Origin: Clostridia bacterium
Lineage (GTDB): Bacteria; Bacillota_A; Clostridia; Christensenellales; Aristaeellaceae
Length of the DNA: 10,744 nt
Direction: 5' to 3'
Assembly: GCA_017432405.1 (NCBI GenBank)
Contig: JAFRJF010000081.1
Coordinates: 1 to 10,744, forward strand
In this document: positions 759-10,489 of the stretch, piece after piece
Position numbering within the stretch: position 1 is the first letter of the stretch
Layout: every line of letters begins with the position of its first letter
The notes under the pieces: generated by a model
Databases searched by the model: none
What the model saw: the letters and a program-made list of their open reading frames with translations, nothing else
Told to the model about the DNA's origin: nothing
Made by a program: the position numbers and the translations under genes

Positions 759-872
759 TTGAACGAAAAGATGGAAGGCGAATTTCCCGTCCTGAAGCCG
801 GGCAACAACCTGGTCTGCTGGTCAGGCGACATCACCAGAGTGGTCATTGAACCGAATTGGCGATATCTGTGA
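759..872 (+). pseudogene. Siphophage distal tail protein, C-terminal fragment
   Basis: The last 37 codons before TGA (870-872) contain GEFPVLKPGNNLVCWSG and end in VVIEPNWRYL. This resembles the C-terminal end of siphovirus distal tail (Dit / phage tail family) proteins, where a 'F-x-x-L-x-P-G-x-N' strand, an 'SG' turn and a terminal 'P-x-W-R-x-L' are common. The assignment is from memory of the family and not from a search. Native sequence begins right after repeat B, so the N-terminal 200 or so residues expected for this family are missing. The frame stays open upstream through repeats B and A only by chance; no start or ribosome-binding site is seen. The fragment is followed after nine bases by the convergent 3' end of tetR. 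Its expected neighbour, the tail-associated protein, is found as a fragment at 4448. Confidence 0.6.
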
Positions 873-881
873 GCTTTTGGG

Positions 882-1502
882 TCAGGACGGTTTCATGGTG
901 AGAATGGATGAAAGATAAAGCTGGAGAATGCGGGCCATCGTTCCCTGTATGTCCGTTTTCAGGTCGCTCATAGCCCAGTCGAACAGGCACCCCTTGACAA
1001 TACTGCAGATGTCAGCGCTCAATTTATGTGGATCTGTATCGGGTTTTAGGACCCCGGCTGCAATCGCCACTCGTGCCTCGTCCTCGCATCGGGCCATGGC
1101 GGTACCGGCGGCAAAATGGCCGTTTTCCTCGCACATATAGGAGGCCAACGCTTTATTGCCGGGGTTATAAAACCGCTTCATAAATGTCACACCGAGGTTG
1201 GAGTAATGCTCCACCAGATGGGAGTACAGCTCACAGACACGACCGGGAAAATCCTCGATGGGTGTCTGCATAATAAAGCGATCAAAAGCCACTTCCTTGA
1301 CGATGGTCATCATCAGATCATCCATATTCTTAAAGTGGTGATAGAATGTTCCCGTGGAAAGCCCTGATGTCTCAACGACATTGGCCGCAGTGAAAGCATC
1401 GATGCCATTCTGTGCGATCAAGGCTATCGCAGCATCTACCAGTCTCTTCCTGGCGTCTGTCGGTTCAACGGCTTTGGATGGGCGCCCCCGCTTTCCTGCC
1501 AT
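882..1502 (-). CDS. TetR-family transcriptional repressor
   Basis: A 206-residue protein, a usual length for TetR regulators. The N-terminus MAGKRGRPSK carries an RGRP patch resembling an AT-hook, followed by the TetR DNA-binding domain (about residues 17-65) with the helix-turn-helix at 37-57: FTAANVVETSGLSTGTFYHH. The rest is the all-helical ligand-binding and dimerisation domain, with two cysteines close to residues 123 and 137 and a CLFDW segment near the end. The ATG at 1500-1502 has GAGGAGG about eight bases upstream. The gene is divergent from nrdD, and two palindromes in the shared promoter region are likely its operators, so it probably represses itself and nrdDG. The ligand is unknown. 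TetR control of nrdDG would be unusual; NrdR is the common regulator. The 3' end lies nine bases from the phage Dit remnant. Confidence 0.95.
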   Translation of the reverse strand: MAGKRGRPSKAVEPTDARKRLVDAAIALIAQNGIDAFTAANVVETSGLSTGTFYHHFKNMDDLMMTIVKEVAFDRFIMQTPIEDFPGRVCELYSHLVEHYSNLGVTFMKRFYNPGNKALASYMCEENGHFAAGTAMARCEDEARVAIAAGVLKPDTDPHKLSADICSIVKGCLFDWAMSDLKTDIQGTMARILQLYLSSILTMKPS

Positions 1503-1530
1503 GCTGTGTGCCTCCTCTCGGGGATTAAAA

Positions 1531-1544
1531 TAAAATCAATTCTA
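1531..1544. promoter_or_regulatory. Candidate TetR operator O1
   Basis: TAAAATCAATTCTA matches the reverse complement of O2 (1586-1599) at 11 of 14 positions and lies just downstream of the predicted tetR transcription start. The centre-to-centre distance to O2 is 55 bases, about five helical turns, so two dimers would sit on the same DNA face. Binding by the neighbouring TetR protein is inferred. Confidence 0.5.
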
Positions 1545-1550
1545 TTTCTG

Positions 1551-1579
1551 TTGACAGTATACCAGATGGATGTTATAAT
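1551..1579 (+). promoter_or_regulatory. nrdDG promoter
   Basis: Perfect -35 TTGACA (1551-1556), a 17-base spacer and perfect -10 TATAAT (1574-1579), preceded by TGT (extended -10). Transcription would start near 1586, inside operator O2. A promoter this close to consensus should be strong unless repressed. No NrdR-box pair was recognised. Confidence 0.87.
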
Positions 1580-1584
1580 GTCAA
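1556..1584 (-). promoter_or_regulatory. tetR promoter, face-to-face with nrdDG promoter
   Basis: On the minus strand -35 TTGACA (1584-1579), a 17-base spacer and -10 TATACT (1561-1556), preceded by TGG. Its -35 abuts or overlaps the -10 of the nrdDG promoter and its -10 overlaps the nrdDG -35, so the two polymerases cannot bind at once. The start of transcription would be near 1549, directly before operator O1. Confidence 0.77.
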
Positions 1585-1585
1585 A

Positions 1586-1599
1586 TAGAATAAATTCTA
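1586..1599. promoter_or_regulatory. Candidate TetR operator O2
   Basis: The palindrome TAGAATAAATTCTA (arms TAGAAT and ATTCTA around AA) lies at the predicted nrdDG transcription start. An additional inverted pair, ATTCTATTT (1539-1547) and AAATAGAAT (1583-1591), ties O1 and O2 together symmetrically around the promoters. Occupancy would block nrdDG directly. Confidence 0.57.
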
Positions 1600-1632
1600 A
1601 TTTATGTGTGCAAGATTCGAGGGGGAAGAAGT

Positions 1633-3834
1633 ATGAAGATCATCAAGAGAAACGGCAGCGAGATGCCGTTTGACAGCGAAAAGATATTCGCGGCGATCTC
1701 CCGGGCAAACGTCCAGGTGGATGCGCCTGACCAGATCAGCAACGCAGAGATCCAGGCGATAACGGATCAGGTGACGGAATACTGCCGCCTGCTGGATCGT
1801 GCCCCGGGCGTGGAAGAGGTGCAGGACCGCGTGGAGCAGGAGCTCATGGCTCACGGCGCTTTTGTGCTGGCCAAGTGCTACATCACTTATCGTTACACCC
1901 GTGCCCTGGTGCGCCAGAGCAACACCACGGATGGCAAGATCCTCAGCCTGATCGACTGTGCAAATGAGGAAGCCAAGCAGGAGAACGCCAACAAGAACCC
2001 GGTGATCAACTCCACCCAGCGCGACTACATGGCGGGAGAGGTTTCCAGGGACCTGACTGAGCGCCTGCTGTTGCCGAAGGACATCGTGAAGGCCCATGAA
2101 GAGGGGCTTATCCACTTCCACGATATGGATTACTATGCCCAGCATATGCACAACTGCGACCTGGTGAACCTGGAGGATATGCTGCAGAACGGCACGGTCA
2201 TCACGGGGACGCTTATCGAAAAGCCCCACAGCTTTTCCACCGCCTGCAACATCGCCACGCAGATCATCGCGCAGGTGGCCTCCAACCAGTATGGCGGACA
2301 ATCCATTTCCCTCGCCCACCTTGCGCCCTTCGTGCAGGTCAGCCGGGAGAAGATTCGCCGGGAACTGGACGCGGAGCTTGCCGAGGTTGGCGTCGCTATG
2401 GATGGAGAAGCAAGGGAAAAGATGGTAGAGCGTCGGCTGCGCGAGGAAGTGAAGCGCGGCGTACAGACCATCCAGTATCAGGTTGTTACGCTGCTGACAA
2501 CCAACGGCCAGGCACCATTCGTGACGGTGTTCATGTACCTGGGCGAGGCGAAGAACGATCAGGAGCGTGATGACCTGGCGCTGGTGATCGAGGAAGTATT
2601 GCGCCAGCGGTATGAAGGAGTGAAGAACGAGCAGGGCGTGTGGGTCACGCCCGCCTTCCCGAAGCTGATCTATGTACTGGAGGAGGACAACATCGGCGAG
2701 GACAGCCGTTACTATTACCTTACAAAGCTGGCGGCGAAATGTACCGCCAAGCGCATGGTGCCGGACTACATCTCCGAGAAGATCATGAAACAGCTGAAGG
2801 GCGGTGACGTGTACACCTGCATGGGCTGCCGCAGCTTCCTGACGCCGGACCGCTTCACGGACGCGGGTCTGGGCAATATCGCCAATGCAGGGAACTATAA
2901 TCCGCATGAGCACAAATACTATGGCCGCTTCAATCAGGGCGTGGTGACGGTGAACCTGGTGGACATCGGCCTGTCCGCCCACGGGGACATGGACGCCTTC
3001 TGGCGGATATTCGACGAGCGGATGGAGCTGTGCCATCGTGCGCTGCGCTGCCGCCATGAACGCCTGCTGGGCACAGCGTCGGATGTAGCGCCTATCCTCT
3101 GGCAGTACGGGGCGCTTGCCCGGCTTCAGAAGGGTGAGGTTATCGACCGGCTGCTGTACAACGGCTACTCCACCATCAGCCTGGGCTACGCTGGCCTGTG
3201 GGAATGTGTGAAGGCCCTGAACGGCAAAAAGCTGACAGAGCCCGAGGGCGAGGAACTGGGCCTTCAGATCATGAGGATGTTGAACACCTACACTGCCAAG
3301 TGGAAGGCTGAGGAAAACATCGACTACTCCATCTATGGCACTCCGCTGGAGAGCACCACCTACCGCTTTGCCAAGTGCCTGCAGAAGCGTTTCGGTGTGA
3401 TCGAGGGGATTACAGACAAGGGCTACATCACCAACTCCTATCACATTCACGTGACGGAGCCCATCAACGCTTTTGACAAGATCGCAATCGAAAGTCGTTT
3501 CCAGGCGCTGTCACCGGGCGGAGCCATCAGCTATGTGGAAGTGCCCAACATGACGGGGAACCTGGAGGCGGTTTTACAGGTGATGCGCTTCATCTATGAC
3601 AACATCCTCTACGCCGAGCTGAACACCAAGAGCGACTACTGTCAGGTGTGCGGCTGGGATGGGGAGATCGAGATTCAGGAGGACGACGGCAAACTGGTAT
3701 GGGTCTGCCCCTGCTGCGGCAACCGGGATCAGGACAAGATGAACGTGGCGCGGCGCACCTGCGGCTACATCGGCACCCAGTTCTGGAACCAGGGCCGCAC
3801 GCAGGAGATCAAGGAAAGGGTATTGCACCTGTAA
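1633..3834 (+). CDS. nrdD: Anaerobic ribonucleoside-triphosphate reductase (class III)
   Basis: This 733-residue glycyl-radical enzyme reduces ribonucleoside triphosphates to deoxy forms without oxygen, in the cytoplasm. The ATG at 1633 (MKIIKRNGSEMPFD) is chosen because GAGGGGGAAG lies just upstream and the family begins this way; an in-frame ATG at 1606 lacks a ribosome-binding site. An ATP-cone fills about residues 1-95 (allosteric control). The barrel region contains HNCDLVN (Cys175) and YTCMGCRSFL (Cys396, Cys399), the latter matching the conserved finger-loop cysteine motif. The C-terminus holds the zinc site CxxC...CxxC (Cys670, 673, 692, 695) and the glycyl-radical motif RTCGYIG with Gly711. 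All key residues are present and no frameshift is seen. It is followed after four bases by its activase nrdG. Transcription is probably controlled by the divergent TetR. The location between two phage tail gene fragments hints at a phage or mobile origin. Confidence 0.98.
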   Translation: MKIIKRNGSEMPFDSEKIFAAISRANVQVDAPDQISNAEIQAITDQVTEYCRLLDRAPGVEEVQDRVEQELMAHGAFVLAKCYITYRYTRALVRQSNTTDGKILSLIDCANEEAKQENANKNPVINSTQRDYMAGEVSRDLTERLLLPKDIVKAHEEGLIHFHDMDYYAQHMHNCDLVNLEDMLQNGTVITGTLIEKPHSFSTACNIATQIIAQVASNQYGGQSISLAHLAPFVQVSREKIRRELDAELAEVGVAMDGEAREKMVERRLREEVKRGVQTIQYQVVTLLTTNGQAPFVTVFMYLGEAKNDQERDDLALVIEEVLRQRYEGVKNEQGVWVTPAFPKLIYVLEEDNIGEDSRYYYLTKLAAKCTAKRMVPDYISEKIMKQLKGGDVYTCMGCRSFLTPDRFTDAGLGNIANAGNYNPHEHKYYGRFNQGVVTVNLVDIGLSAHGDMDAFWRIFDERMELCHRALRCRHERLLGTASDVAPILWQYGALARLQKGEVIDRLLYNGYSTISLGYAGLWECVKALNGKKLTEPEGEELGLQIMRMLNTYTAKWKAEENIDYSIYGTPLESTTYRFAKCLQKRFGVIEGITDKGYITNSYHIHVTEPINAFDKIAIESRFQALSPGGAISYVEVPNMTGNLEAVLQVMRFIYDNILYAELNTKSDYCQVCGWDGEIEIQEDDGKLVWVCPCCGNRDQDKMNVARRTCGYIGTQFWNQGRTQEIKERVLHL

Positions 3835-3838
3835 AGCC

Positions 3839-4363
3839 ATGAACTACGGAACGATAAAGAACTGCGATATTGCCAACGGTACGGGCGTCCGGGTTTCCCT
3901 GTTTGTATCGGGTTGCCGCAATCATTGTCCCGGATGCTTCCAGCCGGAGACCTGGGATTTCGGTTACGGACAGCCTTTCACGGAAGAAACAGAAAATGAG
4001 CTGCTCCAGCTGTTGGAACCCGGCTACATTAACGGCCTGACGCTGCTGGGTGGCGATCCCTTTGAGCCGGAGAACCAGCGTGTGCTTCTGCCGTTTCTGA
4101 GGAAGGTCAGGGCCACCTTTTCAAGTAAGGATATATGGGCCTACACCGGCTACACATGGGAGCAGCTAACCTCCGGGCATCACAGGTCGAGCCTTCCGGG
4201 GACAAAGGAGATGCTCAGTCTGATCGATGTGCTGGTGGACGGGCCGTTTGTCGAAGCAAAGAAGAACATCCGGCTGCGCTTCCGGGGATCGGAGAACCAG
4301 AGGATTATTGATGTGCAGAAGTCCCTTGAGTCTGGCATTGTTATGATCGCCAAGAATGTTTAG
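3839..4363 (+). CDS. nrdG: Anaerobic ribonucleotide reductase activating protein (radical SAM)
   Basis: A 174-residue radical-SAM enzyme, the usual size of NrdG. It uses a 4Fe-4S cluster and S-adenosylmethionine to create the glycyl radical on Gly711 of NrdD. The cluster motif CRNHCPGC (Cys26, Cys30, Cys33) has the CxxxCxxC spacing, and LLGGDPF (residues 69-75) is the SAM-binding GGDP-type motif. The N-terminal NYGTIKNCDIANGTGVRVSL is typical of the family. The ATG at 3839 follows the nrdD stop by four bases, with no strong ribosome-binding site except the AAGGAAAGG about 20 bases upstream, so it is likely translated by coupling to nrdD. The frame is complete and ends with TAG at 4361-4363. 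A terminator follows at 4395. Confidence 0.97.
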   Translation: MNYGTIKNCDIANGTGVRVSLFVSGCRNHCPGCFQPETWDFGYGQPFTEETENELLQLLEPGYINGLTLLGGDPFEPENQRVLLPFLRKVRATFSSKDIWAYTGYTWEQLTSGHHRSSLPGTKEMLSLIDVLVDGPFVEAKKNIRLRFRGSENQRIIDVQKSLESGIVMIAKNV

Positions 4364-4394
4364 CCATGAGGTTATCGAGTTACAGGATTTGTTC

Positions 4395-4420
4395 AGCGTC
4401 GCTACTGCGGCGCTCTTTTT
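4395..4420 (+). terminator. Terminator of the nrdDG operon
   Basis: AGCGTCGC (4395-4402) pairs with GCGGCGCT (4407-4414), one T-G wobble and a TACT loop, followed by CTTTTT. It lies 31 bases after the nrdG stop and before the phage tal fragment, so the tetR-nrdDG unit carries its own promoter and terminator. Confidence 0.75.
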
Positions 4421-4741
4421 ATGCTCGTTTTGTGGAGGTGAACGCCTATGCTCTGTGTCTATCCGCCCGATTGTACCGACTTCTCCGGCAACGGCCTGGG
4501 CACCATTTCGCCCTCTTCCGCGCTGGTGAAGGAAACGCTCAACGGCGAGTATGAGCTGGAAATCGTTCACCCGTTGGACGACACCGGGAAGTGGCACCGG
4601 CTGGTGGAGGGCCATATCGTCCGCGCCCCGGTTCCCGCTTCGGAGACGCCCCAGGTGGCGCTGGCCTACAAGGCCATGAGCGAGGGCAAGGCCATCTACA
4701 AGGTGAACACCAAGCGCAATCCTCTGGTGCTCAGATCCGGA

Positions 4742-4854
4742 GTCAGCGGGGACGGTTCTTCTCGACTCTTTTCGTCTGCATTATGGAGTCAGGCAGAACC
4801 GTTTTCGCCGGCTGTCCATCATCAGGGAGTCAATGAGAGCCGTCCCTCGCCAAC
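4742..4854. repeat. Dispersed inverted repeat, copy C (extended)
   Basis: Left end GTCAGCGGGGACGGTTCTT (4742-4760); right end AGAGCCGTCCCTCGCCAAC (4836-4854). The copy is longer than A, B and D because it contains two right-arm-like segments: a degenerate one, GGAGTCAGGCAGAACCG (4785-4801), and the outer one, GGGAGTCAATGAGAGCCG (4825-4842). This suggests a nested or duplicated arm, or insertion of one copy in another. It begins exactly where the phage tal fragment loses its own sequence and ends four bases before a terminator. Confidence 0.75.
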
Positions 4855-4857
4855 TGC

Positions 4858-4889
4858 ACACCCCGTTTCACTGGTGGCGGGGTGTTTTT
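4858..4889 (+). terminator. Rho-independent terminator
   Basis: ACACCCCG (4858-4865) pairs perfectly with CGGGGTGT (4878-4885) and is followed by TTTTT. The 12-base loop contains a smaller CAC/GTG palindrome. It stops any read-through from the nrdDG/tal side before the DUF4160 promoter. Confidence 0.85.
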
Positions 4890-4892
4890 GCC

Positions 4893-4922
4893 TTGTATTC
4901 TACAATAAAAGTGTGGTATACT
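4893..4922 (+). promoter_or_regulatory. Promoter of the DUF4160-DUF2442 pair
   Basis: -35 TTGTAT (4893-4898), an 18-base spacer and -10 TATACT (4917-4922) preceded by TGG (extended -10). The predicted start near 4929 gives a leader of about 20 bases before the ATG at 4950. Confidence 0.68.
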
Positions 4923-4949
4923 GAAGCGGGAAAGAAAGGAGCCTTCACC

Positions 4950-5216
4950 ATGCCAACCATCAGCCTATTTTATGGTATTTTGATTTCCATGTACTTCGAG
5001 AAGGATGGGCAGCATCACACGCCCCATTTTCACGCTAGATACGGGGAATTCAAAGCGGAATTTGATTTTAATGGCGATATACTAGCTGGCAAGATGCCGC
5101 TTAAGCAAGCCGCATATATCAAAGCCTGGGCTTTTATTCATCAGGAAGAACTCCTCCTGAACTGGGAATTGGCCATGAACGACGAAATGCCCTTCAGAAT
5201 CGACCCATTGAAATGA
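4950..5216 (+). CDS. DUF4160 domain-containing protein
   Basis: This 88-residue protein starts MPTISLFYGILISMYF and carries the hallmark THTPHFH-type segment (HTPHFHARYGEF, His23, His26, His28) followed by the beta-rich DUF4160 core and a helical tail HQEELLLNWELA. The whole protein is one domain of normal family length. The ATG at 4950 is chosen because AAAGGAG lies at about 4935-4941 and the family begins at this methionine; the longer upstream frame runs through repeat C. It forms a unit with the DUF2442 gene nine bases downstream, a pairing seen often in bacteria. The biochemical function of DUF4160 is not established. The small size, tight pairing and scattered distribution are compatible with a toxin-antitoxin-like module, but nothing in the sequence proves this. 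Confidence 0.93.
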   Translation: MPTISLFYGILISMYFEKDGQHHTPHFHARYGEFKAEFDFNGDILAGKMPLKQAAYIKAWAFIHQEELLLNWELAMNDEMPFRIDPLK

Positions 5217-5225
5217 GGTGCTTAT

Positions 5226-5495
5226 ATGGAGGATTTAATCATCGGAAAGCGCGAGCTGTCCCCGGATGCCGCCAGCGTAACAATTTTGCCGGATCACTTG
5301 TTGCGCGTGCGCTTCCTCAACGGTGAACTGCGCGATTTTGATATGAAGCCCCTGCTCACCCGAAAATGCTATCTTCCGCTGAAAAACGACATCCTTTTCC
5401 AAACTGCTACCGTGACATTCGGAACCGTGCAATGGGCCAACGGCCTTGACCTCGACCCCGAATGGCTTTATAAAGACAGCGTACCGGTTCAATAG
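5226..5495 (+). CDS. DUF2442 domain-containing protein
   Basis: An 89-residue protein with the DUF2442 pattern: a strand LRVRFLNGELRDFDMKPLL, then FGTVQWANGLDLDPEWLY near the C-terminus, where 'W-x-x-G-x-D-L-x-P-E-x-L' is the most conserved part of the family. GAGGTG (5215-5220) overlaps the DUF4160 stop and precedes the ATG by five bases, so translation of the two genes is probably coupled. DUF2442 proteins are small cytosolic alpha/beta domains of unproven function and often stand next to DUF4160. Some relatives carry a DNA-binding domain; this one does not. The hairpin of repeat D begins 13 bases after the stop and may act as a transcript end. Confidence 0.93.
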   Translation: MEDLIIGKRELSPDAASVTILPDHLLRVRFLNGELRDFDMKPLLTRKCYLPLKNDILFQTATVTFGTVQWANGLDLDPEWLYKDSVPVQ

Positions 5496-5508
5496 GAAAG
5501 ATACAGAA

Positions 5509-5568
5509 GTCAGGGGACGGCGCTTTTGACTCTGCGAAACGCGCAGACAAAAGCGCCGTCCCTTTGTC
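5509..5568. repeat. Dispersed inverted repeat, copy D (near-perfect hairpin)
   Basis: Left end GTCAGGGGACGG (5509-5520), right end CCGTCCCTTTGTC (5556-5568). GGGACGGCGCTTTTG (5514-5528) pairs perfectly with CAAAAGCGCCGTCCC (5548-5562); after a two-base bulge TCTGCG (5531-5536) pairs with CGCAGA (5542-5547) around an AAACG loop. The ends are those of copies A-C but the inner sequence is different, with compensating changes on both arms. It follows DUF2442 and could act as an RNA end, although the following T-run is weak. Confidence 0.85.
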
Positions 5569-5618
5569 TTATGCCGCCCCGCAACCAAACCCTAACGCAA
5601 ACGTGCCGTGCAATGCGC

Positions 5619-5647
5619 TTGAAGCCTTCACAGAGGAGGTATATGAT
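5619..5647 (+). promoter_or_regulatory. Candidate promoter of the antiporter gene
   Basis: -35 TTGAAG (5619-5624), a 17-base spacer and -10 TATGAT (5642-5647). The spacer includes GAGGAGGT, which looks like a ribosome-binding site but has only four-codon and shorter frames after it. If this promoter is used, the leader would begin near 5654 and AAGAAAGG (5662-5669) would serve the ATG at 5684. Confidence 0.42.
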
Positions 5648-5683
5648 ATGGTAATCAAATAAAGAAAGGCAATGAACTAAAAA

Positions 5684-6973
5684 ATGCTTCTTCCGACCGC
5701 GTTTGCCCTGTTCGCGGGGCTGATCATGACCCGTATCTTCAAGAAAATCAACCTCAAGCTGCCCGATGTGACGGCCTTCCTGATCGCCGGCGTGCTGGTG
5801 GGCCCCTTTGTGCTGGGAGCCATAGACATCCCCTTAGGCTTCAATTCCATGGAGGCGCTGGACAGGGTCAGCTTCCTGTCCACCGTGGCCCTGGGCTTTA
5901 TCGCCTTCGACATCGGCAACGAATTCCGGCTGGCCCAGCTGAAGAAGACGGGCAAGGTCGCCACGGTGATCGGCATCGTACAGGCCCTGGCCGCCATGGC
6001 GCTGGTGGACATCGCCCTCATCGGCCTCCACTTCATCCTCGGCCCTGAAAAGCTGCCCCTGCCGGTGGCCATCACCCTGGGCGCCATCGCCACGGCCACG
6101 GCCCCCGCGGCCACGCTGATGGTCGTGCGCCAGTACAAGGCCAAGGGCCCGCTGACCGACCTGCTGCTGCCCATCGTCGCCCTGGACGACGCCGTGGGCC
6201 TGGTGGTGTTCGCCGTGTCCTTCGGCATAGCCCAGGCCCTGGAGGGCGGCGCGCTGAACGTGACCTCGGTCATACTCAACCCGATGCTGGAGATCGTCTG
6301 CTCGCTGGCGCTGGGTGCGGCCATGGGCGAGCTGCTGACGCTGCTGGAGAAGCTGTTCTTCTCCAACAAGAACCGCCTGTCGCTGACCATCTCCTTCGTG
6401 TTGATGACCATCGCCCTGTCCACGCTCCAGATCCCGCTGCCCGGCGGCGCGAAGATCACCTTCTCCTCGCTGCTGGTGTGCATGATGCTGGGCACCATGT
6501 TCTGCAACCTCAGCGAATACTCCGTGGACATCATGAAGCGCTCCGAGGAATGGACCGCCCCGCTGTACGCGGTGTTCTTCGTGCTCTCCGGCGCGCAGCT
6601 GGACCTTAGCGTGTTCCGCTACCCCTCGATACTGCTGATCGGCCTGGTGTTCATACTGGTGCGCTGCGCCGGCAAGTACCTGGGCGCCTGGGGCAGCGCC
6701 ACGGTGATGGGCTGCGAGCCCAACGTGCGCAAGTACCTGGGCGTCACCTTGTTCCCCCAGGCCGGCGTGGCCCTGGGCATGGTGGTCACCGCCCAGGCCC
6801 TCGGCCAGGAATACGGCGCCATGATCCGCAATATCATACTGTTCGCCGTGCTCGTCTACGAGCTGGTGGGCCCGCTGCTGACCAAGCAGGCCCTGATGGC
6901 CGCCGGCGAAGTGGCAGACAAGCACCCCGAAGCGCACTACCGGGCCAGGTTCCAGAAGAAGGCCGCGCAGTAA
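5684..6973 (+). CDS. Cation:proton antiporter (CPA2 / Na+/H+ exchanger family)
   Basis: A 429-residue integral membrane protein with about 12-13 hydrophobic segments across the Na_H_Exchanger domain (roughly residues 1-405). The N-terminal MTRIFKKINLKLPDVTAFLIAGVLVGP is typical of Kef/NapA-like CPA2 carriers. ATATAPAAT (136-144) corresponds to the unwound helix segment and VALDDAVGL carries the two aspartates Asp168-Asp169 (DD motif), associated in the family with electrogenic exchange. It likely swaps Na+ or K+ for protons at the cytoplasmic membrane. There is no C-terminal TrkA-N/RCK domain; the tail is a short, charged, soluble segment. The start is fixed by an in-frame stop at 5678-5680, though the AAGAAAGG site is 14 bases away, longer than usual. 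It is a single-gene unit with its own terminator at 7003. The ion specificity cannot be read from sequence. Confidence 0.93.
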   Translation: MLLPTAFALFAGLIMTRIFKKINLKLPDVTAFLIAGVLVGPFVLGAIDIPLGFNSMEALDRVSFLSTVALGFIAFDIGNEFRLAQLKKTGKVATVIGIVQALAAMALVDIALIGLHFILGPEKLPLPVAITLGAIATATAPAATLMVVRQYKAKGPLTDLLLPIVALDDAVGLVVFAVSFGIAQALEGGALNVTSVILNPMLEIVCSLALGAAMGELLTLLEKLFFSNKNRLSLTISFVLMTIALSTLQIPLPGGAKITFSSLLVCMMLGTMFCNLSEYSVDIMKRSEEWTAPLYAVFFVLSGAQLDLSVFRYPSILLIGLVFILVRCAGKYLGAWGSATVMGCEPNVRKYLGVTLFPQAGVALGMVVTAQALGQEYGAMIRNIILFAVLVYELVGPLLTKQALMAAGEVADKHPEAHYRARFQKKAAQ

Positions 6974-7002
6974 CCGCTCCCGGGCTTCGCCCTGTAATTC
7001 TC

Positions 7003-7032
7003 AAAGACTTGCCTTTTCAGCAAGTCTTTTTT
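7003..7032 (+). terminator. Terminator of the antiporter gene
   Basis: AAAGACTTGC (7003-7012) pairs perfectly with GCAAGTCTTT (7020-7029) around a seven-base loop CTTTTCA, continuing into a T-run to 7032. The loop also holds the -35 region of the next promoter. Confidence 0.92.
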
Positions 7033-7042
7033 GTGCTATAAT
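7014..7042 (+). promoter_or_regulatory. Promoter of the transglutaminase-like gene
   Basis: A perfect -10 TATAAT (7037-7042) preceded by TGC (extended -10), with TTTTCA (7014-7019) 17 bases upstream as a weak -35. Start of transcription near 7049 leaves a leader of about 50 bases. It also shows that an in-frame ATG at 7041 cannot be the start codon. Confidence 0.62.
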
Positions 7043-7097
7043 GAAAAGGCAATATAACAAACTGGATGTTTTCCCCCGTGACCACAAGGAGCCGCCC

Positions 7098-9998
7098 ATG
7101 AAAAAAGCGCTATGTGCCTTATTGATTCTCCTGCTGACGACAGCGGTGCCGGCGCTGACGGAGAGCGCGATCTCCATGCCCGGTGAATTGGAGATCACTG
7201 AGGAAGCACTCCTCCTCCCGGAGGACGTCAGCGCCGGTCCTGAGACGGATGGGGGCGATATCCTGCTCCCGGAGGACGACGCCGAAATGCCGTTCGAGCT
7301 CGCCGACGAGATGCCTGTCGACGTCCCGATCGACCTCGATATCTCCGACGGCGGCCTTGAAGCCAATCTGCTGATACCGGAGCCGACAGACGACGGCCTG
7401 GCCTCCGACCCCGCCGTGCTGGTGCCGACCGAGGAGGAAGCGTGCTTCATCCATTCCTCCCGGGACAGCGACGCCCTGTTCGCCGGCTACGCGAACGGCA
7501 TTCTCCACGGCGCTGGACCCAGGCGCAACGCCACCGCCTACGCCCGGGAAAAGCTGAACAGCCAGGAGCAGGTCATCTACGACGCCTTGAAGCCCCTCCT
7601 CGCCCAGGTCGCCGAGGGCAGCCGCGCCTCCACCAAGTTCGAAGTTCCCCTGTCAGCACTGCTGGGCCTGACCCGCATCACCGGCCAGGCCCTGACCGGC
7701 GAGGTGCTGTCCAACCCGATGACCGACGACGAAATGGCCCGTGTCGCCGCCGCGTGGAAGGCACTGTACACCTACACGCTGAGCAACGTAGCCAACGCCC
7801 TGTGGTTTGACTGTACCTACGAGCTGTACTGGCTGGATCGCTACGACAATCCCATCCGGGCCGTAAAGCCCGCGGTGATGTATCGCTACAGTGCCGAGCT
7901 CGGCGACTGGGAGCTTTATGTGGCGGACGGTGCCGGCGTCAGCTTTCGATTCCCGGTGCTTGCCCGGTACCAGGGCGATACCTATACCGTGGATCCCGGA
8001 AGCATCGACCGAGCGAAGCTCGCCCGAAAGAACGCCCAGGCCATCGTGGAGCAATACGCCGGCTGCTCGGATTATGCCAGGCTGGCCGGCTACGTGACGG
8101 CGATCTGCCGGCTGGTGCGCTATGACGACGAGGCCGCCACCCCCGAATGGCAGTACGCCAATCCCCAGGTCCAGGACCCCTGGAAGCTGATCTCGGTCTT
8201 CGACGACGACAGCAGCACGAACGTGGTCTGCGAGGGCTACGCCCAGGCCTATCAGTACCTGTGCGAGCTGACACAGTTCGACGGCGACATCCACTGTCGC
8301 CTGGTTACCGGAAACGTCAGCGGCACGGAGCACTCCTGGAACCTGGTGCGCATGGACGACGGGAAGAACTACCTGGTGGACGTGTCCTCCATGGACGGCG
8401 ATTGGGACGACACGGACGGCGACCTGGCCCACTGGATTGGCGAAAACCGGGGCAACCTGTTTCTCTGCGGCGGCTCCGGCAACGTCTCTGTCGGCTACGA
8501 CATCGTAAGACGCGACGGCTCGGAGGAGGGCAGGCGAAGCTACCGCAGCGAGACGCTGGACATCTATCCCGATGCCGCGCTGGCCCTCGCCCCGAAGCGC
8601 TACACCCCCACCGGCTTCCACAAGCTCCCCGACGGCTTCCACTATTTTGACGACAGCGGCGCGTTTGTCACCGGAGAAGCGCTGCTGGACGGCTATGGCT
8701 ATCGGTTCGACGTCGACGGCAGGCTGGAGGACAGTCTCTCCGGCTGGCACACCGTCGACGGCGAGCGCCGCTTCTTCGAGGCCGACGGCAAGCTGCACGA
8801 GACGCACACCCCGATCATCGACGCCGCCGTGCCGCCGACCTGTACCGAGCCGGGCCTGACCGAGGGCAGCCATTGCGCCGTCTGTGAAACGGTGTTGACC
8901 CCCCAGGAGCCCGTCGAAATGCTGGGCCATCATTGGGGAAAGGCGTCCTATGCCTGGTCTGAGGACTACACGAGCGTCGCCGCCCGCAGAGCCTGCCTGA
9001 ACGACCCGGCCCATGTGCAGGCCGAGACCGTCCAGACCTCCGCCGAGGTCACGAAGGCCGCCACCTGCACCGCCAGGGGCACCACCACCTACACCGCCAG
9101 CTTCGATAATACCGCCTTTCACACGCGGAAGAAGGCCGTCAGAAACATCCCCGCCACCGGCCATCGCTGGGGCAGGGCCGGATACACCTGGGCTGAGGAT
9201 TACACGAGCGTCACCGCACGCAGGGCCTGCCTGAACGACCCGGCCCATGTGCAGATCGAGACCGTTCAGACCTCCGTCGAGGTCACGAAGGCCGCCACCT
9301 GCACCGCCAGGGGCACCACCACCTACACCGCCAGCTTCAGGCGCACTGCCTTCAGGACACAAAAGAAGCGAGTCAGGGACATCCCCGCCACCGGCCACAC
9401 GCCCGTCACGGACCCCGCCGTACCGCCAACCGCCACTGCCAACGGCCTGACCGAAGGCAGCCATTGCGCCGTCTGCGGCAAGGTGCTCGTGGCGCAGAAG
9501 CCAATCCCTAGGCTGGACAACGCCCTGATCCTGCGGGGCAACGCCTGCCGGCTGGTCGAGGTGGGCAAGCCCCGTCAAATCATCGTGGCGCTGGGACCGG
9601 TCAGAAGCTACAAGAGCAGCGTGCCCTCTGTTGCCTCGGTCAGCCGGAAGGGGCGTGTAAGCCCACGCGCGCCAGGCATAGCGCTGATCACCATACATCT
9701 GAAGGATGACAGCATACTGCTGCTGAAGCTGGTCGTCCGGGATCCCCACGCGCCCAAATCCGTGCGCATCGCCCAAGGGCGTCGCGCCACACTGAAGGTC
9801 GGGGAAACGCTGGCCCTGAAGGCCGTGCTGCGACCTGCCGGTACACGATCCGCGCTGCGCTGGAGCAGCAGCGAACCCAGGATCGCCTCCGTCAGCAGGT
9901 CGGGCGTGGTCCAGGCGCGTCAGCCGGGCAGAGCGACGATCGTGGTGCGCACCGCCAACGGCAAGCGGGCCGCCATCTCGATCGCGGTGGTAAGATAA
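7098..9998 (+). CDS. Secreted transglutaminase-like protein with repeat block and BIG2 domains
   Basis: A 966-residue exported protein. The ATG at 7098 has AAGGAG (7086-7091) six bases upstream. Residues 1-22 (MKKALCALLILLLTTAVPAL) form a signal peptide. Residues about 23-115 are a very acidic, Pro-rich linker. A helical part leads into a transglutaminase-like core with the expected Cys378 (VVCEGYAQAY), His412 (EHSWNLV) and Asp428 (YLVDVSSMDGD) triad. Residues about 506-568 (GFHKLPDGFHYFDDSG, GWHTVDGERRFFEADGK) resemble cell-wall-binding repeats. A Cys-containing repeat block (570-807) follows, then two BIG2-type Ig-like domains (about 808-966) with ASVSRKGRVS and ASVSRSGVVQ. No LPXTG signal or C-terminal membrane anchor is present, so attachment is probably non-covalent through the repeats. 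The likely role is a cell-surface or secreted peptide-modifying or peptide-cleaving enzyme; substrate unknown. No clear terminator follows. Confidence 0.92.
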   Translation: MKKALCALLILLLTTAVPALTESAISMPGELEITEEALLLPEDVSAGPETDGGDILLPEDDAEMPFELADEMPVDVPIDLDISDGGLEANLLIPEPTDDGLASDPAVLVPTEEEACFIHSSRDSDALFAGYANGILHGAGPRRNATAYAREKLNSQEQVIYDALKPLLAQVAEGSRASTKFEVPLSALLGLTRITGQALTGEVLSNPMTDDEMARVAAAWKALYTYTLSNVANALWFDCTYELYWLDRYDNPIRAVKPAVMYRYSAELGDWELYVADGAGVSFRFPVLARYQGDTYTVDPGSIDRAKLARKNAQAIVEQYAGCSDYARLAGYVTAICRLVRYDDEAATPEWQYANPQVQDPWKLISVFDDDSSTNVVCEGYAQAYQYLCELTQFDGDIHCRLVTGNVSGTEHSWNLVRMDDGKNYLVDVSSMDGDWDDTDGDLAHWIGENRGNLFLCGGSGNVSVGYDIVRRDGSEEGRRSYRSETLDIYPDAALALAPKRYTPTGFHKLPDGFHYFDDSGAFVTGEALLDGYGYRFDVDGRLEDSLSGWHTVDGERRFFEADGKLHETHTPIIDAAVPPTCTEPGLTEGSHCAVCETVLTPQEPVEMLGHHWGKASYAWSEDYTSVAARRACLNDPAHVQAETVQTSAEVTKAATCTARGTTTYTASFDNTAFHTRKKAVRNIPATGHRWGRAGYTWAEDYTSVTARRACLNDPAHVQIETVQTSVEVTKAATCTARGTTTYTASFRRTAFRTQKKRVRDIPATGHTPVTDPAVPPTATANGLTEGSHCAVCGKVLVAQKPIPRLDNALILRGNACRLVEVGKPRQIIVALGPVRSYKSSVPSVASVSRKGRVSPRAPGIALITIHLKDDSILLLKLVVRDPHAPKSVRIAQGRRATLKVGETLALKAVLRPAGTRSALRWSSSEPRIASVSRSGVVQARQPGRATIVVRTANGKRAAISIAVVR
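8805..8927 (+). repeat. 41-residue 'HTP' repeat, unit 1
   Basis: Encodes a 41-residue module beginning HTPIIDAAVPPTCTEPG and containing LTEGSHCAVC. The three cysteines (in PTCTE and HCAVC) resemble a small metal-binding or disulfide-stabilised fold common in clostridial surface proteins. Its partner is at 9396-9518. Confidence 0.85.
8928..9395 (+). repeat. Tandem 234-base repeat, two units (78 residues each)
   Basis: Unit 1 is 8928-9161 and unit 2 is 9162-9395, in phase and without gap. Each encodes a module starting H-[HR]-W-G, with EDYTSV, RRACLNDPAHVQ, EVTKAATCTARGTTTYTASF and ending in IPATG. Two conserved cysteines per unit. The units are highly similar in both DNA and protein, pointing to recent duplication or conversion. 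Confidence 0.95.
9396..9518 (+). repeat. 41-residue 'HTP' repeat, unit 2
   Basis: Encodes HTPVTDPAVPPTATANG and the same LTEGSHCAVC as unit 1, exactly 41 residues. The first cysteine of unit 1 is alanine here (PTATA instead of PTCTE), so only the HCAVC pair remains. Confidence 0.85.
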
Positions 9999-10132: not shown

Positions 10133-10489
10133 ATGAAAAAGATCATCGCTCTGATTCTGGTTATGGTTCTGTTGGCTTTCGGCCTGACCGCCTGCAAGAA
10201 GGCTGAGCAGAAGGCTGAAGAAGCTGCCGCCAAGGTCGAGGAGACCGCCGAGAAGGCCGAGGAGAAGGCTGAAGAGGCCGCCGAGAAGGCCGAGGAAAAG
10301 GTCGAAGAGGCTGCTGAGAAGGCCGAAGAGGCTGCTGACGCTGCCGCTGATGCTGCTGCCGACGCCGTTGAGGAGGCCGAAGAGAAGGTCGAAGAGGCCG
10401 CTGAGGCTGCTGCTGACACCGCTGAGGCCGCTGCCGACGCCGCTGAAGAGGCCGTTGAAGAGGCTGCTGACGCCGCCGCTGGCAACTAA
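10133..10489 (+). CDS. Ala/Glu/Lys-rich helical lipoprotein
   Basis: A 118-residue protein starting at the ATG at 10133 (MKKIIALILVMVLLAFGLTAC); AAAGGAAG lies about nine to twelve bases upstream. LTAC (residues 18-21) is a lipobox, so Cys21 should be lipidated and the mature protein anchored to the outer face of the membrane. The remaining 97 residues are almost only Ala, Glu, Lys, Asp and Val in repeats such as EEAAEKAEEK, with no Pro or Gly until the last residues, which predicts one long continuous helix or coiled coil. Lysines stop after residue 85 and aspartates begin only at residue 69, so the distal end is much more acidic. It resembles in style Lpp-like or other spacer lipoproteins but I recognise no specific family. 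An earlier in-frame ATG at 10082 is rejected because it lies at the promoter. Confidence 0.87.
   Translation: MKKIIALILVMVLLAFGLTACKKAEQKAEEAAAKVEETAEKAEEKAEEAAEKAEEKVEEAAEKAEEAADAAADAAADAVEEAEEKVEEAAEAAADTAEAAADAAEEAVEEAADAAAGN

Follow-up and report, generated by a model that had tools for sequence, protein, structure and literature searches.

A probable phage cargo-slot remnant carrying nrdDG beside a putative divergent TetR switch in a Clostridia bacterium

Morons, or prophage accessory loci, were reportedly described by Juhala (2000) and Cumby (2012), and phage T4 is said to carry nrdD and nrdG, the genes of an anaerobic ribonucleotide reductase and its activase. We analysed a 10,744-nt stretch of a Clostridia bacterium (contig JAFRJF010000081.1, hereafter the window) in which a divergent tetR gene and nrdDG lie between the end of a distal tail protein gene (dit) and the beginning of a second phage tail gene (tal). 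The consulted part of PMC7067206 describes morons as extra genes that have their own promoter and terminator and sit between phage genes adjacent in relatives; it also describes a fixed prophage site beside the immunity region that hosts different accessory loci. We consider it likely that the block between 760 and 4738 is what remains of a siphophage cargo slot, holding nrdDG under a divergent TetR switch. No description of a dit–tal cargo slot was recognised in the literature, a weak negative given coverage mostly at title and abstract level.

The preliminary description of this DNA had placed the C-terminal codons of a Dit-like protein at 759–872 and a Tal-like N-terminus with a strong ribosome-binding site at 4448, and both assignments stand. 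Positions 759–869 match PHROG 33 (distal tail protein Dit; E = 1.1e-4). The fragment (760–872, forward strand) consists of the last 36 codons of dit with the stop at 870–872, and it shares 97% amino acid identity over 37 residues with the Dit C-terminus of a viral contig, L006. At the other end, 4448–4741 matches phrog_1067 (labelled minor head protein; E = 3.6e-12) and phrog_7142 (tail protein; E = 1.4e-11). This part (4434–4738, forward strand) comprises the ribosome-binding site GGAGGTG at 4434–4440 and the N-terminal 97 codons of Tal from 4448, which are 95% identical to locus L001 over 97 residues. Neither fragment has a match in Pfam or NCBIfam. With tail-protein profile matches on both sides, the objection that the fragments might have no similarity to tail proteins fails. 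The tetR gene (882–1502, reverse strand) ends exactly nine bases from the dit stop (873–881), as had been noted.

The phage-cargo reading is supported because dit, nrdD, nrdG and tal are collinear in L006. This 8.8-kb viral contig emerged when viral contigs were searched with the Tal fragment, a search that yielded 10 loci. It has a complete dit ending at 4325, nrdD at 4362–6563, nrdG from 6568 and a tal start at 7110, and its NrdD is 93% identical to that of the window; the earlier proposal that nrdDG was phage cargo thus gained a viral counterpart, and the second objection foreseen for it, that relatives might have the cassette at this place with no phage genes around, fails as well. The L006 nrdD begins 36 nt past the dit stop and nrdG ends 14 nt ahead of tal; no tetR, no terminator before tal, no extended −10 promoter element within 80 nt after dit and no other promoter motif is visible there. 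As nrdDG occupies the same place in L006 and the window, we have two wirings of the same two genes.

We then compared dit–tal junctions at large. Junctions were collected by searching viral contigs (72 loci) and genome contigs (36 loci) with Dit, from 300 family genomes (52 matching) and from fetched regions, keeping dit matches that reach model position 225 and have a tal match downstream. Merging near-duplicates (more than 97% identity in both flanks, slot length within 3 nt and first 60 nt more than 90% identical) reduced 143 rows to 93 distinct junctions, the window included. Thirty-eight are shorter than 150 nt and 55 are longer, up to 5.7 kb. Among the short ones, 22 measure 12–34 nt and have room for hardly anything beyond the tal ribosome-binding site; in 14 the two genes overlap or touch, and two junctions measure 48 and 75 nt (L104 and L090). 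These last two are gene-free with a terminator-like hairpin by eye, and are possibly scars of lost cargo. In the control junction upstream of dit, none of 88 measured exceeds 674 nt; a common gap of about 350–370 nt there may be explained by a 231-nt gene that two named phages carry upstream of dit. Nine of 11 distant named phages have no annotated open reading frame (ORF) separating the Dit gene from the tail gene that follows it; in eight of these nine the pair overlaps or is at most 29 nt apart, and in H53 the distance is 119 nt. The remaining two, H31 and H82, have ORFs at this place. A 603-nt gene lies between dit and the next tail gene of L306 (PV036413), a more distant Acutalibacteraceae phage, so that the slot may extend beyond the clade studied here.

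On a quick tree of 92 Dit proteins, which left out the window and had no shuffled-label control, the junction changed between occupied and empty at least 18 times, and the cargo of 53 occupied slots sorts into 38 unrelated groups, which implies no fewer than 43 changes. Since relatives hold different passenger genes between dit and tal, the junction looks like a standing slot for swappable cargo in this phage clade, a conclusion that sequence comparison supports well.

The filled slots have a recurring frame. In 47 of the 55, a hairpin followed by a T-run is found no more than 78 nt ahead of tal, and the terminator core GCGTC..GRCGC occurs in 30 of the 55 versus 0 of 93 inside tal. In an earlier set, such hairpins were found before tal in 42 of 49 slots; the corresponding counts were three of 49 right after dit and one of 76 inside tal, and shuffled sequences averaged 3.6 of 49. 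On the dit side, 26 of 55 slots have an extended −10 element (TGnTAYAnT) in the first 80 nt, versus none of 93 inside dit, none of 93 inside tal and one of 55 on the reverse strand. Unguided motif searches returned GGCGCTTTTnTTTTGC on the tal side (log-likelihood 438 versus 55–64 in shuffles) and the extended −10 on the dit side (133 versus 46–53); the real data were given 60 random starts and the shuffles 25, a difference that somewhat favours the former. The stretch upstream of the hairpin gave a weak motif signal (90 versus 51–65).

In the window, the predicted terminator (4395–4420, forward strand) reads AGCGTCGC-tact-GCGGCGCT, then CTTTTT, with one mismatch in the stem, and precedes the tal ribosome-binding site. 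Related hairpins precede tal behind unrelated cargos, and for this reason the terminator seems to belong to the slot. The promoter and terminator that the preliminary description had assigned to nrdDG are thus both predicted in the window, with this amendment.

Exchange of cargo within preserved ends is best seen in L004 and L126. Their dit and tal are 91% and 96% identical, the slot is 100% identical over its first 70 nt and again over its last 80 nt, and the cargo between is different, being unlike apart from a 48-nt stretch at 77%. The pair L115 and L137 likewise shares slot ends around different cargo. Terminators as general recombination anchors were considered and rejected: when terminators had to be more alike than both flanks by 0.08, 48 of 1346 pairs with unrelated cargo passed versus 150 of 1346 null windows in tal, so the terminators are not shown to be exchange points. 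Integron-like core sites, CAAATCGGGATTTG before and CAGTTTGACGAGAT after the cargo, were also rejected; they occur in several close relatives, and the motif search favoured the −10 element and the terminator. The palindrome CAAATCGGGATTTG, or a close form of it, lies just upstream of unrelated cargos in the leaders of L002, L004, L126 and L130. Exact copies are also found elsewhere in genomes G001 and G004, and it is possibly a shared operator. Across 54 slots the cargo has a GC content of 47% versus 57% in the flanks, and is the lower of the two in 52.

The cargo itself is diverse. A simple script predicted 107 cargo ORFs in 79 groups, the choice of ORFs differing between passes in a few slots; Pfam was run on 40 + 6 representative proteins, and some of the others are known only via a group relative. 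We found an aminoglycoside 3-N-acetyltransferase (PF02522; L007, 3584–4366), a chloramphenicol acetyltransferase (PF00302; L096, 1968–2585), GNAT proteins (L126 and L146), a SnoaL protein (L004), a GDPD protein (L092), a KilA-N protein (L140) and a ferredoxin–flavodoxin protein (L002). Several slots hold a regulator beside other genes, such as ArsR with an ArsP permease (L067), an ArsR-type regulator with chromate transporters (L094), MarR with MATE efflux (L097), HxlR with radical SAM and nitroreductase proteins (L134), a TetR-like protein with DegV (L231), and ApbE with an FMN-binding and a TetR-like protein (L125). Others contain MerR-TipAS (L070), an extracytoplasmic function (ECF) sigma factor with a protein weakly like DUF4179 (L074), LytTR with DUF3021 (L136), or Phd/ParE, with ParE just under the cut-off (L129). 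The L001 cargo has no Pfam match. By a manual tally that counts group relatives, a predicted DNA-binding regulator or sigma factor is paired with another gene in about 19 of the 54 slots of at least 400 nt, and the repressor-plus-enzyme cassette of the window is accordingly one instance of a pattern. When 10 cargo proteins were compared with anti-phage defence models, strong matches to candidate models were found for L137 (PDC-S01) and L140 (PDC-S22), L078 matched only weak regulator models, and seven had no match.

The nrdD gene (1633–3834, forward strand) encodes an anaerobic ribonucleoside-triphosphate reductase of 733 residues, which matches PF13597 (E = 3e-190) and has an ATP cone and a glycyl-radical domain. 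Its motifs MGCRSFL, a CxxC...CxxC pair and RRTCGYIG align with the solved NrdD structures 9d3x and 1h78, the second of which we take to be that of phage T4, and the active-site and zinc cysteines and the glycyl radical site are kept. The nrdG gene (3839–4363, forward strand) encodes a radical-SAM activase of 174 residues (TIGR02491; E = 3.2e-55, 186 bits versus a cut-off of 126), in which the CX3CX2C motif reads CRNHCPGC. With the NrdD core, the glycyl radical site, the ATP cone and the NrdG activase all predicted, the cassette classifies as a class III ribonucleotide reductase, NrdDG.

The preliminary description had proposed a comparison of the window NrdD with phage NrdDs. In a tree including 11 of the 47 viral NrdD loci besides L006, the window falls with L006 and with database proteins that are 89–100% identical, some named as Oscillospiraceae or Lachnospiraceae metagenome-assembled genomes, and the 11 other viral NrdDs fall outside this clade. 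One locus, L028, has 14 stops in its NrdD frame (6001–8202), perhaps reflecting an intron, a frameshift or another genetic code, and its place in the tree is unsafe. NrdD of the window type is found in 94 of 391 class genomes at E 1e-250, the best full-length match being 79% identical. In the host genus, the window NrdD has no match at E 1e-100 in any of 28 genomes, whereas PF13597 is matched in every one of them, in 26 below E 1e-79 and weakly or partially in G253 (8e-17) and G225 (1e-6). The enzyme encoded by the cargo thus seems to be foreign and additional.

We next turn to the switch. The TetR protein (206 residues) has the N-terminal helix-turn-helix of PF00440 (E = 1.1e-12, 47.9 bits versus a cut-off of 24), and its nearest protein is 98% identical and stands for a cluster of 22 member sequences. 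Between tetR and nrdD lies a predicted promoter, TTGACA-17 bp-TATAAT (1551–1579, forward strand), flanked by two predicted palindromic operators, O1 (AAATAAAATCAATTCTATTT, 1528–1547) and O2 (AAATAGAATAAATTCTAATT, 1583–1602); O1 has one mismatch in its 9-bp arms. We compared this region with seven TetR relatives, 44–57% identical, from genomes of the host family. The promoter aligns with the divergent promoters of these relatives, paired palindromes surround the promoter in 7/7, the position of O1 is homologous in all seven, and the O1–O2 spacing is 55 bp in the window and 55–58 bp in the relatives. A DsbA-like gene directly faces tetR in five of the seven (L160, L164, L165, L167 and L168). In L169 the DsbA-like gene comes second, behind a 131-residue ORF, and has its own operator-like site; in L166 none was found within the 3.6 kb examined. 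The two facing DsbA-like proteins tested, those of L160 and L164, match PF01323, and in both loci the gene of a metallo-β-lactamase (MBL)-fold hydrolase comes next (family tested for L160). In the window, nrdDG occupies this tetR-facing place. Relatives of the window tetR were found in five of 200 family genomes at E 1e-30, the best being 57% identical; a search of 396 order genomes at E 1e-45 found none, a weak negative, as the sample held no genome known to match.

The window and these tetR–dsbA-like loci therefore share a divergent promoter with paired operators, but differ in what the repressor faces and in the operators themselves. The inner three bases of the half-sites are AAC/GTT in 28/28 of the relatives and AAT/ATT in all four of the window, a symmetric change from AACnnGTT to AATnnATT. 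At one place in the DNA-binding domain, TVR in the genomic repressors corresponds to TAA in the window repressor and to TVA, TLN, TVN or TIT in its closest relatives. The missing arginine may be the residue that reads the changed operator base, the changed type being represented by one DNA example. TetR control of nrdDG is, on these sequence grounds, probable. As for the signal, the consulted part of PMC7119367 describes a tetR–dsbA-like pair within a disulfide-stress (allicin) resistance island of Pseudomonas. That part also relates that tetR itself was not hit in the mutant screen, and for that reason a thiol-reactive inducer of the window TetR, suggested by analogy, is only a guess; the searches made turned up no ligand for this subfamily.

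Both ends of the remnant coincide with palindromic repeats. A first repeat unit lies at 548–621 and a second, 90% identical to it, at 689–759, with arms (687–713 and 732–758) that are 81% complementary; at the right edge, repeat units span 4740–4860, where the arm 4741–4768 is complementary to 731–758 at 82%. The DNA similarity of dit begins at base 760 in all eight loci with a blastn match there (two being near-duplicates of others), and the similarity of Tal stops at 4738–4741, where the palindrome begins (4740/4741). Each tail gene thus ends within about 2 bases of a repeat, and the claim that the tail genes had decayed is not borne out: they appear cut at palindromes instead of slowly degraded. 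The first unit is 92% identical to a unit beside the orthologous antiporter gene in G225, the sole place in that genome at E 1e-6 for the whole unit. Repetitive extragenic palindromic (REP)-type repeats are linked with RAYT (Y1) transposases; in a test for this type, the palindrome pattern with up to two mismatches had 12 matches in G225 versus one for the reversed pattern. As the remnant is bounded on both sides by palindromes of a multi-copy family, repeat-based deletion or recombination is a likely route by which the rest was lost. A small ORF (458–547) with a signal-peptide-like start by eye is cut at the palindrome at 548, and would be a third gene truncated at such a repeat. The antiporter gene of the window (5684–6970) is 98% identical to that of G225, which places the window in the genus of G225 or near it. 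In G225, no similarity to dit, tetR or nrdDG was found in the 19 kb compared and one palindrome copy adjoins the antiporter gene.

Taken together, we suggest that the block 760–4738 is the remnant of a siphophage related to the Christensenellales phages placed in Ca. Heliusvirales, and that it consists of the phage cargo slot with the mere ends of the flanking dit and tal. Comparison shows that in the empty slot dit and tal overlap or are separated by a few dozen nucleotides; the filled slot contains a single passenger gene or several, in many cases behind a predicted promoter of their own, and mostly ends in a predicted hairpin terminator that would shield tal. TetR, bound to the two operators around the promoter, would keep nrdDG repressed, and probably its own gene as well, until released by a ligand, which may be a thiol-reactive compound. 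Repressor, promoter and operators are related to the host-family module that directly faces a DsbA-like gene in five of the seven relatives, here facing nrdDG with both operators symmetrically changed. Recombination or deletion between palindromes probably removed what else there was of the prophage, leaving the cassette intact. With somewhat less assurance, we lean towards a more general picture, in which the junction in this clade of gut and rumen Clostridia phages is a plug-in expression slot with recurring promoter and terminator sides; its genes would be exchanged so often that the cargo differs in nearly every phage, many cargos being self-regulated sensor–effector pairs. The window would then hold a redox-type TetR switch captured from the host family with its promoter and operators, set before nrdDG and given a new operator specificity.

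A different view of nrdDG, as an aid to phage replication that is expressed with the late tail genes and supplies deoxynucleoside triphosphates, the TetR control of the window being a later and local change, seems to us doubtful. It would suit L006, where the two genes are packed between dit and tal without a terminator or an extended −10, and the 2795 records of a phage collection that encode NrdD relatives. Against it, few of the cargos scanned have any obvious part to play in phage growth, the window cassette has its own promoter, operators and terminator, and the 11 other viral NrdDs (with the unsafe placement of L028) lie outside the clade of the window and L006. Moreover, the consulted part of PMC3653736 reports the order nrdGD for phages with only class III genes, whereas the order here is nrdDG. 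It is also very unlikely that the insert is ordinary tail or lysis gene content near tal. Fibre-like proteins (by eye) in L005, a CHAP/peptidoglycan-binding lysin in the slot of L061 and a small ORF after the Dit-like gene of Lactobacillus phage phiLdb point that way, but only L005 and L061 looked structural or lytic among the subset of cargos examined, and many others are genes of resistance, transport, regulation or toxin–antitoxin type.

A host tetR–nrdDG locus that came by chance to lie beside unrelated phage scraps is scarcely credible. The tetR relatives L160 and L164 do lie in bacterial genomes with no tail gene recognised by eye nearby; such a coincidence, however, would have to account for the collinearity of dit, nrdDG and tal in L006, for a hairpin and a tal ribosome-binding site positioned as in other phages, and for the absence of the window NrdD, at E 1e-100, from 28 host-genus genomes. 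Nor do we give appreciable weight to an assembly artefact: both joins fall at repeats, but an identical NrdD is present on three contigs and near-identical copies (P0122–P0124) on six more, the TetR cluster has many members, and the gene order within the joins, tetR excepted, is independently backed by L006.

The cargo-slot reading is favoured by strong purifying selection on nrdD, as indicated by the ratio of non-synonymous to synonymous substitution rates between the window and L006 (0.058 for nrdD, 0.11 for nrdG), but these values span both lineages, including the time spent as phage. Several observations weigh against this reading. L006, a short contig, is the only other case of nrdDG found in the slot. 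The search for relatives that the preliminary description had proposed did recover nrdDG between dit and tal there, yet none of the fetched phages has tetR together with nrdDG. The idea of a repressor travelling with the cargo is accordingly borne out by the joined tetR–nrdDG of the window but not by L006, which lacks tetR, or by any fetched phage, and a TetR scan of viral contigs, which reaches close relatives only, found no tetR relative. In the Dit tree, 28 of 89 inner branches are weak, many of them deep, and there were long-branch warnings. Eight of the 55 filled slots have no hairpin and 29 have no −10 motif, and terminators are no more alike than the flanks. The window cargo is not compositionally foreign, with a GC content of 58% in nrdD, 62% in tal and 53% in dit.

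Some further features of the window lie outside the remnant. A toxin–antitoxin-like pair, DhiT-like/DUF4160 and DUF2442 (4950–5495), sits between the palindromic units at 4740–4860 and 5512–5562; the DhiT match is under the curated cut-off. A large protein is encoded at 7098–9998; it resembles a transglutaminase-related lipoprotein family weakly, under the cut-off, and has a Big_2 domain at its C-terminus, and its gene contains a 234-nt segment in duplicate. A small lipoprotein-like ORF (by eye) at 10133–10489 consists nearly entirely of Ala/Glu/Lys repeats. No tRNA was found in the window, and its two Rfam matches are both under the gathering score.

Phage cargo is hard to recognise by sequence alone, and the fixed dit–tal address lets candidate lysogenic-conversion genes, among them genes for efflux, metals and acetyltransferases, be read out in Clostridia of the gut and rumen that are uncultured. 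The example of tetR–nrdDG suggests a way in which a host may come to own an additional, regulated enzyme through the remains of a prophage. The missing repressor arginine and the symmetric change in the operators would jointly be a natural change of specificity that is directly testable.

Compared with known systems, the nearest named phages are those of Ca. Heliusvirales/Heliusviridae (PV036454 and PV036419), with 57–58% identity in Dit and 58% in Tal. The dit–tal junction of PV036454 is empty, and that of PV036419 contains two small annotated ORFs, with a third where tal begins. Neither "tail" nor "moron" is used in the main text of PMC9226167 on Ca. Heliusvirales. A class III reductase is likewise found in T4 and other phages, from which the window differs by the nrdDG order, the predicted TetR control and the clade shared with L006. 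The accessory site beside the immunity region is also fixed and holds varying loci, whereas the dit–tal slot lies inside the tail module. By its architecture the cassette is a moron: it is inserted between genes that are adjacent in relatives, and a promoter and a terminator of its own are both predicted. The clade of the window differs from described morons in that one junction takes dozens of unrelated cargos in a recurring frame, and the window cargo in that it has its own repressor and operators. The moron architecture is already known, and what appears new is the multi-cargo slot in a recurring frame together with a captured switch that has apparently been re-specified.

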